Origin: Methylocaldum sp. 14B
Lineage (GTDB): Bacteria; Pseudomonadota; Gammaproteobacteria; Methylococcales; Methylococcaceae
DNA: 64,000 nt
NCBI RefSeq assembly: GCF_002005105.1
Contig: NZ_MSCV01000031.1
Location: forward strand, 1 to 64,000
Direction of reading: 5' to 3'
The position numbers and the translations under genes are program-made. Position 1 is the stretch's first letter. Every line of letters begins with the position of its first letter. Positions 22,171 through 42,230 of the stretch are shown piece by piece. The notes below the pieces were generated by a model that saw only the letters and a program-made list of their open reading frames with translations, ran no database searches and was not told where the DNA came from.

Positions 22171-23097
22171 ATGAATAGCTCAGAAGATTCCCAACGCCCT
22201 CTTGCCCCTTTGGGAAGTATCGAACCCCACGCGCCACTACTGCGCATTCCGCCGCAAGACCAATTGCTGTACAAGATCATGACGGTCGAGAATCTCTTGC
22301 GCTCAGTCACCGGCAATTATCTCTACTTCAGCCGCGTCGACAGTTACTCGGACTTCCCCAACGCTGACGAGAACGACAGCCGGCAGTTACCAAAGGATCA
22401 ACCGGCCAATGCTGCCGCTAGGTTCCAGAAGGCCCCGGACTTTTCCGTGGCGCATTATTACGACGAATGCAGGAGCAGAACCTTTGCGAGCTGCTTCTCC
22501 GTCGAGAACTCCGACTATATCTGGAACAACTACGCCAACGGTAGCGAGAAGGGCAAAGTCTGCGTCGTGTTCGAGTTTGGGAAGCTGCGAGCCATGCTCA
22601 ATCGCGCATTGAATCCCGAAGGCGCCGTCCTTCTATATGAAGGCAATCCCTGTCGTCAGATATTCTCGGTAAATTACGGCTTGGTTAGCTATGTCGATTG
22701 GGACACCCATCAGACAAACGAGACGTATCTGTCCAATCCAATTCTCTACACGTACATCAAAGACGCCGATCGCTTCAGCGAAGAGAAGGAGTTGCGCATT
22801 TCCTTTTCTGCCATTGGCATTGGGCACTTCGCTCTAAAGGACGGCACATTTATTCACTTCCCGCCCTCCCTGCAACTTGAGTTCGACTTTCGAGAGGCAA
22901 TTGCGGGCGCCGCAATTCGAGAAATCCTGTTGGCACCTGAGGCCGACTCTGGTTTCCTGATGCACGAGTTGAGCAAGCTCCGAATTGAACCAGCCCGCGT
23001 AGGATGGGTAGAGCGAAGCGAAACCCATCAATCCGAGAAGCCTATTCGAAATCCAAATCGTCCATCTCGGAACCCGCCCAATCCTTCGAGCCCGTAG
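22171..23097 (+). CDS. DUF2971-like protein with REP-derived C-terminal tail
   Basis: This 308-residue protein shows DUF2971-like features: LLYKIMTVENLL, NYLYFSRVDSYSDFPNA, FASCFSVENSDYIWNNYA, KVCVVFEF and FSEEKELRISF. The family has no assigned biochemical role. From about residue 277 the frame runs through a REP (22999-23030), giving the telltale VGWVERSETHQ, and stops at the TAG of the next REP's GTAGG head (23095-23097). About 32 residues are therefore repeat-derived and the original stop is lost. The start is set at ATG 22171; a GTG at 22159 is in frame. It lies 52 bp after the HEPN-like gene and is probably co-transcribed. Confidence 0.72.
   Translation: MNSSEDSQRPLAPLGSIEPHAPLLRIPPQDQLLYKIMTVENLLRSVTGNYLYFSRVDSYSDFPNADENDSRQLPKDQPANAAARFQKAPDFSVAHYYDECRSRTFASCFSVENSDYIWNNYANGSEKGKVCVVFEFGKLRAMLNRALNPEGAVLLYEGNPCRQIFSVNYGLVSYVDWDTHQTNETYLSNPILYTYIKDADRFSEEKELRISFSAIGIGHFALKDGTFIHFPPSLQLEFDFREAIAGAAIREILLAPEADSGFLMHELSKLRIEPARVGWVERSETHQSEKPIRNPNRPSRNPPNPSSP
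22999..23030 (+). repeat. RAYT-type REP palindrome inside the DUF2971-like reading frame
   Basis: This 32-bp REP begins GTAGGATGGGTAGAGCGAAG and ends ACCCATCA, with TGGGT/ACCCA as stem. It is an exact inverted copy of 21361-21392. It lies within the 3' end of the DUF2971-like frame and is translated there. Confidence 0.9.
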
Positions 23098-23125
23098 GCT
23101 GGGATGAGTGAAACGAATCCCAGCA
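23094..23125 (+). repeat. RAYT-flanking REP (CTGGGAT variant), left
   Basis: This REP begins GTAGGCTGGGATGAGTGAAA and closes with TCCCAGCA; the stem is TGGGA/TCCCA. It faces an inverted relative at 23758-23789, and the transposase gene lies between them. Its first four bases supply the stop codon of the upstream DUF2971-like gene. Confidence 0.88.
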
Positions 23126-23135
23126 AATCAAGCTG

Positions 23136-23669
23136 TTACTCCCATTGACACGCCGCGACATCCGGCGAGATCGACGCCCAGTCGGCAGGGTAGACGCCCC
23201 GTTCGACCCAACGATGAAAGGACGAATAAGGCCAATCCTTCGGAGATTGCACGTAGCCATGTTTGACCGGGTTGAAGTGAATGTAATCCAGGTGTCGGTG
23301 GTAATCCCGTTCGTCCCGAATGACATGCTCCCAATACCGGCGTTGCCATATGCCTCGCTCGCCTTTTCTCCGGCGGCTCGCCGAAATGCGCTCTTCTCCA
23401 TCGATTCGGCGGGAAAAGCGCGCCTTTATTAAACGCCAGCGGGTTGAGAAATCGTCATCGGCCGGCGGCAGTTGCCACACGCAATGGAGATGGTCCGGCA
23501 AGACCACAATGGCCTCGATCGAGAAGGGATGCGATTTCCGAGTCATCTTGAACGCTTCGCGCAGATCGGCAATATGCCGCGTGAGAAGGTCGTTGCCGCA
23601 CCTTTCCGCCAGATTCACCGTAAAAAAGTACACTCCGCCGGCAATTTTGGCTCGTTTATAGACACGCAT
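23136..23669 (-). CDS. REP-associated tyrosine transposase (RAYT)
   Basis: This 177-residue Y1/HUH-type nuclease has the metal-binding DHLHCVW motif at residues 59-65 (His60, His62) and the RAYT C-terminal helix RDYHRHLDYIHFNPVKHG at about 121-138. The catalytic Tyr is probably in this helix (Y123 or Y129). RAYTs recognise and cleave GTAG-headed REPs as single strands and are thought to spread them. The gene is framed by inverted REPs of one variant (23094-23125 and 23758-23789), plus a third at 23682-23712, the standard REP-RAYT-REP unit. The frame is intact and may be active. Confidence 0.93.
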   Translation of the reverse strand: MRVYKRAKIAGGVYFFTVNLAERCGNDLLTRHIADLREAFKMTRKSHPFSIEAIVVLPDHLHCVWQLPPADDDFSTRWRLIKARFSRRIDGEERISASRRRKGERGIWQRRYWEHVIRDERDYHRHLDYIHFNPVKHGYVQSPKDWPYSSFHRWVERGVYPADWASISPDVAACQWE

Positions 23670-25247: not shown

Positions 25248-25508
25248 TCATCGGCGGGGATTCCGTCTCCGGGACTACCAAACGTACGCTCACGGGAGAC
25301 GCGTCGAGGGCATCTTGAGCGATTAAGAACCGCGCAGGATGGGTAGAACACAGCCTTCCCGGCTTGCCGCCATTTCAATAAGAACCTGCAACGATTCCGC
25401 CCGACTCGTGATCTAAGGGTGACAAACCGGGTGCAGACGCTTCGGCGACTTTGCGCTCGGAACCGGACGTTTGTTCCGCCGATAAGCGCATTCAAAGGAG
25501 GGATTACC

Positions 25509-26033
25509 ATGCAAATGCAAGTGCCGAAAATCGATCGAGTGCTGGTGGGCGAAGCCTTGGTAGGAGAAGGCAAAGAGGTCGCGCATATCGATCTGATCAT
25601 GGGACCGCGTGGCAGTAATGCGGAGACCGCATTCTGCATCGCTTTGACCAATCAGAAGCGGGGCGACAATGCGCTGCTGGCGCTGGTCGCTCCCAATCTC
25701 ATGGCCAAACCCCACACGGTGTTGTTCAACAAAGTCGAAATCAAGAACGAGAAGCAGGCGACCCAGATGTTCGGGCCGGCGCAGCGCGGCATTGCCAAGG
25801 CCGTGGTGGACAGCGTCAGGGACGGCATCATCCCGATGGATGAAGCCGAGAACACGTTCATCTGTGTCGGCGTCTTCATCCATTGGGAAGCCGACGACGA
25901 CGACAAGATTCAGGACTGGAATTACGAGGCGACCAAGCTGTCGATCAAGCGCGCCATCGAAGGATCGCCCACGCCAGCCGAAGTCATCGCACAGGAGGAA
26001 GTGGCGCATCATCCGCTGGCAGCGCACGATTAA
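25509..26033 (+). CDS. fae: Formaldehyde-activating enzyme (5,6,7,8-tetrahydromethanopterin hydro-lyase)
   Basis: Fae condenses formaldehyde with tetrahydromethanopterin to give methylene-H4MPT, the entry to C1 oxidation and detoxification in methylotrophs. This 174-residue protein matches the family throughout: [24 protein letters not shown] at residues 13-36, with His26 at the position of the catalytic His; [24 protein letters not shown]; and [16 protein letters not shown]. The ATG at 25509 has GGAGG 7 bp upstream; the frame opens at 25419 but those residues are unlike Fae. No other H4MPT-pathway gene is in the window, so this is an isolated copy. It could be a Fae paralogue; the conserved His and intact core favour activity. 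Confidence 0.95.
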
Positions 26034-26061
26034 GGAAAGGCAAGGGTTAGGGCGCCATTAC

Positions 26062-26238
26062 ATAGGATGCGCTGACGAAGGAAGGGTTGCGACTAAAGCA
26101 ACCGTTTGCGATTGGAAGGGTCGCGACTAAAGGTCCGTTTGCGATTGGAAGGGCAGCTCTGATGCTCCCAGAGATGCCATTTGCGATTGGAAGTGCATCG
26201 TTCGCGATTGATGCGCTTCCTTCGTCAGCGCATCCTAT
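26062..26238. repeat. Element with perfect 23-bp inverted ends enclosing a hairpin-unit array
   Basis: The arms 26062-26084 and 26216-26238 are perfect reverse complements (left arm starts ATAGGATGCGCTGACGAAGG). Between them lie four units (26082-26115, 26116-26148, 26149-26190, 26191-26220). The first three each consist of AAGGG, a variable insert, then a constant GTTTGCGATTGG or close variant. Inserts 1, 3 and 4 are self-complementary: GGTTGC/GCAACC at 26085-26103; GGCAGCTCTG/CAGAGATGCC; and AAGTGCATC/GATGCGCTT with one mismatch. No open frame of interest crosses the element. A related array is at 41952-42050. Confidence 0.8.
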
Positions 26239-26302
26239 AAATCGTAGGCTTCAGGCCTCGAATGCCGAATGGAAGAAGAAAGGCAGCGTCGGAGCTACCC
26301 AA

Positions 26303-41899: not shown

Positions 41900-41923
41900 G
41901 TAGGTCGGCAATCCTTTGCCGAC
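41900..41923 (+). repeat. Orphan REP arm
   Basis: This begins GTAGGTCGGCAATCCTTTG and lacks its normal facing partner. After a loop ending GGCTTTGTCGG (to 41951), the hairpin-unit array starts where the second arm is expected. The REP therefore looks interrupted by the array. Confidence 0.75.
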
Positions 41924-41951: not shown

Positions 41952-42050
41952 AAGGGCAGCTCTGGCGCTCCCGGAGATGCCGTTTGCGATTGGAAGGGTC
42001 GCGACTAAAGCGACCGTTTGCGATTGGAAGGGGCCGATTAAAGCGTTTTC
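41952..42050. repeat. Hairpin-unit array, second copy
   Basis: Units at 41952-41993 and 41994-42027, with a partial third to 42050, repeat the plan AAGGG, insert, GTTTGCGATTGG. Insert 1 (GGCAGCTCTGG/CCGGAGATGCC) corresponds to unit 3 of the array at 26082-26220. Insert 2 (GGTCGC/GCGACC around GACTAAA, 41997-42015) corresponds to its unit 1 but with both stem bases changed to keep pairing. Confidence 0.75.
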
Positions 42051-42158: not shown

Positions 42159-42230
42159 ATATCCGAATCCCTTACACCGATTCGGAAAACGCTCTAAACG
42201 CCCGTTTGCGATTGGAAAAGGATTGCCGAC

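Follow-up and report, generated by a model that had tools for sequence, protein, structure and literature searches.

Identity and boundaries of the window array

The DNA at positions 26062–26238 of the window, by which is meant the whole 64,000-nt stretch analysed here, raises the question of what kind of element is built from short constant segments alternating with variable inserts, and how it came to lie where it does. The window is contig C31 of the source genome (G000), a 5.62-Mb draft, and was compared with three congeners (G001, G002 and G003) and with other genomes, among them G017, from another genus. A preliminary description of the DNA had reported the array of constant segments and variable inserts, and the sequence and repeats are as given there, including a perfect 23-bp inverted repeat (26062–26084/26216–26238) that was taken to bound the array. 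The region is parsed as follows.

26062–26081, no strand assigned: left part of the host palindrome, ATAGGATGCGCTGACGAAGG, which ends in GG at the insertion point and forms a hairpin with 26191–26238
26082–26115, + strand: unit 1, AAG + 19-nt hairpin insert + GTTTGCGATTGG (sequence parse)
26116–26148, + strand: unit 2, 18-nt insert GGTCGC-GACTAAA-GGTCC + GTTTGCGATTGG (sequence parse)
26149–26190, + strand: unit 3, 27-nt insert + ATTTGCGATTGG (sequence parse)
26191–26238 (48 nt), no strand assigned: remainder of the host palindrome, starting with AAG (joined-flank fold)

Positions 26082–26190 are occupied by three head-to-tail units, each composed of AAG, an insert and a tail, the tail of unit 3 (ATTTGCGATTGG) having one mismatch to GTTTGCGATTGG. 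The insert of unit 1 reads GGTTGC-GACTAAA-GCAACC (26085–26103, 19 nt). Inserts 1 (19 nt) and 3 (27 nt) fold, and insert 2 (18 nt) pairs incompletely; the latter joins the 5' half of the 19-nt type to the 3' half of the 17-nt type, and by this composition unit 2 looks like a chimera or recombinant. When the flanks 26062–26081 and 26191–26238 are joined they fold as a single 68-nt hairpin with 30 pairs, an 8-nt loop and an energy of -57.2 kcal/mol, and the three units therefore sit within one arm of one 68-nt host palindrome. The joined-flank fold also rules out a reading of 26062–26238 as one unit bounded by terminal inverted repeats, since the inverted ends are part of the separate host hairpin of 30 pairs and do not bound the array. 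Of the four inserts that had been counted, the fourth is TTCGCGATTGATGC, the centre of the host palindrome, and the number of units is three.

The gene directly upstream of the array, at 25419–26033, encodes Fae (formaldehyde-activating enzyme, PF08714, 226 bits). A repeat related to GTAGGATGGGTAGAGCGAAGCGAAACCCATC may, as an inverted pair, make up the 68-nt host hairpin (ATAGGATGCG...TGCATC). GTAGGATGGGTAGAGCGAAGCGAAACCCATC adjoins a Y1_Tnp gene (window 22999–23669) and is a repeat different from the units; matches of about 35 nt to the GTAGGATGGGTAGAGCGAAGCGAAACCCATC stretch recur in G001 and G003, some forty among the matches listed.

Unit architecture and copy number

A second array in the window contains a relative of insert 1 at 41997–42015, with exactly the sequence that the preliminary description gave for it, GGTCGC-GACTAAA-GCGACC. 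The features around it are listed here.

41900–41923, + strand: GTAG REP GTAGGTCGGCAATCCTTTGCCGAC, shortly ahead of the second array; copies of this REP also bracket the Y1 gene at locus L015
41952–41993, + strand: 27-nt-type unit (sequence parse)
41994–42027, + strand: 19-nt-type unit, with the insert at 41997–42015
42028–42045, + strand: cut-off 5' half of a further unit, 17-type (sequence parse)
42204–42215, + strand: lone GTTTGCGATTGG tail of a truncated unit (core search)

The general form of the unit is AAG, a hairpin insert of 17, 19 or 27 nt and GTTTGCGATTGG, for a total of about 32–42 nt. It forms a single hairpin whose feet differ (AAG on one strand, GCAAAC on the opposite one) and carries no gene. 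The exact 12-mer GTTTGCGATTGG occurs 315 times in G000 against 1 occurrence of the reversed pattern. Inserts were surveyed in loci from five genomes by taking every exact 12-mer together with the nearest exact AAGGG up to 35 nt upstream, with no filter on pairing or length; the survey took in 137 exact cores against the 315 genome-wide exact cores in G000, of which a part was sampled (an 825-kb sample plus 26 targeted stretches). An AAGGG head was present for 167 of 234 cores and absent for 67, and the insert length was 17, 19 or 27 nt in 159 of the 167, as it was in 93/96 of a smaller set. The 18 cores out of 73 that had no AAGG head in range were mostly holders of nested units, a few being degenerate or truncated, and in several clusters inverted units were found inside the loops of 27-nt units.

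Two half-units stand head to head as CCAATCGCAAAC-GGTCATCCCAGGACGGCC-GTTTGCGATTGG at L046 1944 and L092 3331, an arrangement common to G000 and G003 whose sequence resembles the outcome of a deletion at a short repeat within a nested unit. In G000, contigs C6, C8 and C11 have an end in or next to a unit array; such arrays seem to interrupt the draft assembly, and copy number may therefore be underestimated.

Covariation of the hairpin stems

The 35 distinct 27-nt inserts align without gaps. In this set 92.5% of stem cells are paired against 70.9% in shuffles, and the covariation score is 0.629 against 0.209 in shuffles, a value reached by 0/500 of them, while six slid registers gave scores of 0.047–0.157. 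Two of the five covariation measures failed to beat the shuffles: neither pairs changed on both sides (94/500 shuffles reach the observed value) nor further pair types (115/500) were in excess in the 27-nt inserts. The preliminary description had named many non-pairing inserts, or the lack of any excess of compensation, as findings that would count against it; both were looked for and neither was found.

It had further proposed that pairing of the stems is selected. Compensation does go well beyond chance, and this part of the proposal stands; selection is not thereby shown, since hairpin-templated correction would produce the same pattern. That the covariation arises from templated repair, in which one arm is copied onto the other, and not from selection or from any need of movement, is a serious possibility that falls somewhat short of probable. 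Such repair needs no function and would account for the strong compensation even at freely varying stem positions, but the stem varies against a loop, feet and length that hardly change, a pattern suggesting that a fixed shape is recognised. This explanation competes with selection on pairing and not with mobility.

Insertion point and host palindromes

Hosts were reconstructed with a recursive parser that excises the innermost units first and so restores plain palindromes. With the caret marking the junction, the restored hosts comprise GTAG REPs (..GTCGGG^AAGGGATTCCCGAC..), CACCCCGGCAGG^AGTGCCGGGG, CCCTCTGGG^AGAGGG, palindromes of the CCCCC type, the GGATGCG palindrome and the loops of units. 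In a wider set the parse gave 222 units, of which 19 enclose a nested unit, and 121 junctions; the parser used for it required some pairing and tolerated two core mismatches, and its output includes at least one false unit, the conserved coding stretch at L053 10141. After removal of 21 of the 121 junctions at which the left flank is itself a unit tail, 100 remained, and GG precedes the unit at 90 of these, with GG^A/G at 88; on the other strand the junction reads (T or C)^CC. A stem of at least 6 bp was found around 59/100 junctions as compared with 167/2000 control GG^R sites taken 250–1800 bp away, no 6-bp hairpin being scored at the other 41; the junctions are not all independent, and part of their spread is hitch-hiking in copied host repeats. 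The unit ends in TTGG and begins with AAG, and its own 3' end is thus another target.

Related empty sites were sought for 79 junctions, 23 of which were dropped because the left flank is a unit tail. Within the DNA sampled, an intact related empty site was found for 24 of the remaining 56, or 22 when two self-matches (the window array and L059) are subtracted, against 0/112 controls in which 7 nt had been removed. Comparison of the host repeats at the empty sites revealed no target duplication longer than 2–3 nt; with TTGG at its end and AAG at its start, the unit would mask a duplicated GG or GGA. In several GTCGGC-type hosts (L021, L023, L046, L050 and L051) the base after the unit is G, and the empty copies have C. 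A sequence resembling GAGAAATGCGGGCTAG recurs next to the ends of several arrays (L016, L024, L053, L168 and L177) and may be a further host element.

Differences between relatives and units within genes

The composite at 26062–26238 is wholly missing in G002, whose alignment breaks off at 26058 and picks up again at 26301, the two parts being separated by 7 bases; G002 also lacks the 62 nt to the right of the palindrome. At the same locus G001 differs over a longer stretch, and the genes that flank the window array are no longer neighbours in G003.

Locus L048 holds a gene for a 1063-aa error-prone DNA polymerase (NCBIfam NF004225, 1489 bits, cut-off 939) that includes a 126-nt in-frame cluster of three units, one of them nested (L048 7794–7919). 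The polymerase genes of G001, G002 and G003 are without this cluster and are joined at the same place, and the site has no host repeat. In G002 it reads CGATTGG^A; the target already resembles the unit end, and 7 bases are ambiguous for duplication. An array shared by G000 and G003 is longer in G000 by exactly one 42-nt unit, with a left flank that is 96% identical and, in G003, 1.2 kb of other DNA some 13 nt past the end of the shared array. A TrbC-like gene (PF09673) has two units in G000 and one in G002, a 42-nt difference between flanks that are 99% and 91% identical, and the G000 frame is open. An outer-membrane efflux gene (PF02321) likewise has a 33-nt unit in frame, close to its start. 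The in-frame units at L048 7794–7919, L174 2020–2103 (the TrbC-like conjugation gene) and L173 2054–2086 (the efflux gene) are all read in the same frame (..RLRL), and their lengths are divisible by three. At L176/L089 and at L053 7164 units are absent from the relative, with junctions not clean enough to count, and in G003 (L144) a REP beside a conserved flank holds two units, the likely orthologous REP of G000 being empty.

These comparisons bear on the alternative that the units are passengers of mobile GTAG REPs or of larger repeats, and that arrays change by recombination, slippage and gene conversion. Palindromes unrelated to one another (CCCCGGCA, CCCTCTGGGAGAGGG, CCCCC-type, GGATGCG and GTAG REPs) hold units at one and the same GG^R point, also in G017, and the polymerase-gene site is without a host repeat and empty in three relatives. 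These findings make the alternative unlikely, although several clusters do have the same composite host, the second unit of the window array and the half-units placed head to head in L046 and L092 look recombinant, one-unit array differences could result from unequal crossover, and the polymerase-gene target has 7 bases in common with the unit end.

Distribution among genomes

The search of related genomes with a covariance model, which the preliminary description had proposed, was run with a model built from the 27-nt unit under strict filters, with 106 candidates scored per genome and E values up to 0.001, and found units in 14 of the 61 genomes searched, G000 included. There were at least 143 matches in G000 and at least 34, 34 and 96 in the three congeners; elsewhere at least 38 were found in G005, which is placed in the window's family, at least 23 in G030, at least 15 in G017 and at least 8 in G009, with 3 or fewer listed in six others. 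The exact 12-mer GTTTGCGATTGG occurs 24, 30 and 84 times in the three congeners and at least once in 29/61 genomes, the highest counts outside the genus being 23, 22 and 13 and the remainder 6 or fewer.

A scan of a genome collection for CCGTTTGCGATTGGAAGGG, in which records of the source genome itself or of near ones may be missing, returned 13 stretches, 6 from a metagenome-assembled genome (MAG) titled Methyloversatilis universalis TT109_59_23 and 5 from 'Methylococcaceae bacterium isolate 8'. Single matches in a Burkholderiales MAG and a Bacteroidetes MAG had no hairpin unit and are likely due to chance. The stretches from MAG TT109_59_23 (L056, L058, L059, L062, L063 and L068) have their matches at the same coordinates as congener G002, and two of them (L058 and L068) are 84–91% identical to G000; from these sequences the title of the MAG is probably a mislabel.

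Candidate mobilising enzymes

One candidate gene lies in the window itself.

23136–23669, - strand: Y1_Tnp (RAYT-like) gene (PF01797, 27.2 bits, cut-off 23)

No unit core was found within 1.5 kb of its Y1 match. G000 has 7 Y1_Tnp matches in all, and 0/7 of these loci are bracketed by units; Y1 genes are present in 54 of the 61 genomes, G000 included, and co-occurrence with units is therefore uninformative. Locus L015 is the REPtron of the GTAGGTCGG host REP, and L087 (on C21 of G000) and L015 have 15 GTAGGTCGG REP matches (at most 1 mismatch) within 3.3 kb around the Y1 gene. In L012 the Y1 match lies between two GTAGGGCGG repeats, with a pair of units just outside, within 300 bp; for this locus, and probably for L009, the open frame picked was not the Y1 frame and only the flank repeat counts are used.

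In the relatives, 30 Y1 loci (L101–L130) were inspected out of 66 Y1 matches listed, and none of the 30 contains a unit core at a tolerance of 1 mismatch. Distances from Y1 genes to units were also measured for 28 Y1 places in G003 and 6 in G017 against the core places, 65 of 84 being listed for G003. A broken Y1 gene of G003 has a unit 195 bp away, on one side only; among the core places listed, the next Y1 places of G003 have units at 1.6 and 2.1 kb, and the nearest distance in G017 is 3.0 kb. The IS605-type elements of G003, which stand at TTGAC, were rejected as a source, their ends being unrelated to the unit, and an exact-anchor test of these elements gave no match. No autonomous copy, with the halves of a unit around a gene, was seen among the clusters listed, and no mobilising gene was found among the Y1 genes examined.

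The cleavage site bears on the nature of the enzyme as well. In the TnpAREP proteins that have been studied, cleavage is at CT or CA, with the dinucleotide set by a guide at the hairpin foot (PMC8266576). In silico, the feet of the unit (AAG and GCAAAC) and its junctions (GG^R and Y^CC) do not fit a CT/CA cut directly; shifting the guide by a single base on the second strand (CAAA) would allow it to pair with the T that precedes the cut.

The main alternative to a Y1 enzyme would be a recombinase with a GG core. More broadly, units might be moved by a recombinase or a double-strand transposase that targets palindromes (IS110/IS1111-like, IS3-like or a GG-core site-specific recombinase). The inserted unit has GG at each end, the arrangement expected of a shared 2-nt core, and IS110 elements use a 2-nt core; a 2-nt (GG) or 3-nt duplication, which is compatible with the unit ends, would fit enzymes other than Y1. 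Insertion sequences specific for REPs are also known (IS1397, IS621 and ISPpu9; PMC1525189), and the cut differs from the CT/CA of the studied REP transposases (PMC8266576). The unit has neither separate terminal inverted repeats nor a gene, however, and we rate movement by such an enzyme as improbable.

A probable mobile single-hairpin element

A mobile element had been one of the options left open for the array, and it is the one with which the comparison of sequences agrees. As a joint best explanation, we consider it on balance probable that the unit is a non-autonomous, single-hairpin mobile element that moves in a single-stranded DNA form, likely through a Y1 (HUH) enzyme; the case for its mobility is drawn from comparison between genomes and between sites. 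On sequence comparison, units are found at GG^A/G in palindromes of several unrelated repeat families, in the loops of other units and occasionally in genes; the 3' end of a unit (TTGG followed by A) is itself a further target, from which head-to-tail arrays arise, and sister species have gained or lost whole units. Movement would involve a folded single strand of DNA, which a trans-acting enzyme would cut and join after GG; this enzyme would most likely be a Y1 (HUH) transposase related to RAYTs and to IS200/IS605, and hairpins would be hit because their single-stranded tips are exposed. A Y1 enzyme is the likeliest guess, since single-strand transposition is compatible with the lone small hairpin, the fixed short target and the preference for folded sites. 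More tentatively, the units may form a third class of bacterial REP-like mobile DNA that is without the GTAG or CGTC tag and specialises in other palindromes, homing to GG^A at the hairpin tips both of unrelated repeats and of its own copies, so that repeats come to be nested like Russian dolls, with a mobilising enzyme that follows a novel cleavage rule; this is possible, and we would not put it more strongly. That the units are instead functional RNAs or regulatory hairpins kept by selection at each site is very improbable, even though 28 of 33 junctions in a smaller G000 set lie outside ORFs of at least 200 aa, which cover 75% of the sample, and 5 inside, since the Rfam search of the window gave 0 matches above the gathering threshold, sites differ between congeners, and some units lie in coding sequence, in frame.

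REPs are very numerous, yet their spread is poorly shown. The element described here offers fixed-point events that can be read by comparison, in the form of empty orthologous sites, one-unit differences, and nesting in its own loops, along with a clear target rule, and it makes directly testable the question of what moves REP-like hairpins and whether the mover seeks folded DNA. It also illustrates a way in which simple hairpins can develop into nested palindromic repeats, and in which such repeats add in-frame peptides to proteins.

Comparison with known systems

The likeness to a CRISPR array is superficial, as had been noted before: judged on the inserts alone, these are hairpins with three main lengths and turn up repeatedly throughout the genome. 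A classical MITE has separate terminal inverted repeats, and the unit has instead one hairpin with unlike feet. Rickettsia palindromic elements (RPEs) are likewise palindromic inserts in genes that keep the frame (PMC10969869), but RPEs are about 150 bp long and noted for their insertions in genes, whereas the units lie mainly outside long ORFs and are nested in repeats. REP-targeting insertion sequences (IS1397, IS621, ISPpu9 and ISPsy8) insert into REP palindromes, in some cases invariably at one point (PMC1525189), but have a transposase gene of their own, in contrast to the gene-less units of 32–42 nt. With IS200/IS605 elements and their gene-less derivatives the unit has in common insertion next to a short fixed sequence and a hairpin near the element end; it differs in having one hairpin only, and a 2–3-nt duplication could hide in its ends.

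The closest resemblance is to REPs of the GTAG and CGTC types, with their REPINs and BIMEs, which are also short, high-copy and mostly extragenic hairpins with complementary stem variants, found in arrays and in some cases within genes. Complementary stem variants and intragenic REPs have been reported, as have REPs inside other palindromes (GTAG-15, GTAG-23 and CGTC-1; PMC3733652). The earlier statement that no described class has this structure was accordingly too strong, REP-like palindromic elements, some of them inside other palindromes, having been described (PMC3733652). In the open-access literature searched, no description was found of a unit that has a 12-nt tail and no tag and is positioned at GG^A close to the tips of several unrelated palindromes and of itself; the GTTTGCGATTGG string is present in one unrelated paper. 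The unit is set apart from REPs by its 3-nt 5' foot and conserved 12-nt 3' tail and by its position at GG^R near hairpin tips, its own included. It has no CGTC tag at either end, unlike CGTC REPs, and no GT[AG]G tetranucleotide at its 5' hairpin foot, the feature that defines the GTAG REP and REPtron, although subclasses 2.6 and 3 lack it (PMC6006769). It differs from the GTAG REP/REPtron further in that no Y1 gene examined is bracketed by units and that the CT/CA cleavage dinucleotide was not seen at the junctions in silico. In the broad sense the unit is a REP-like repeat, a short palindrome in tens to hundreds of copies that is mostly extragenic, and by its sequence the element is REP/MITE-like, without the GTAG or CGTC tag.
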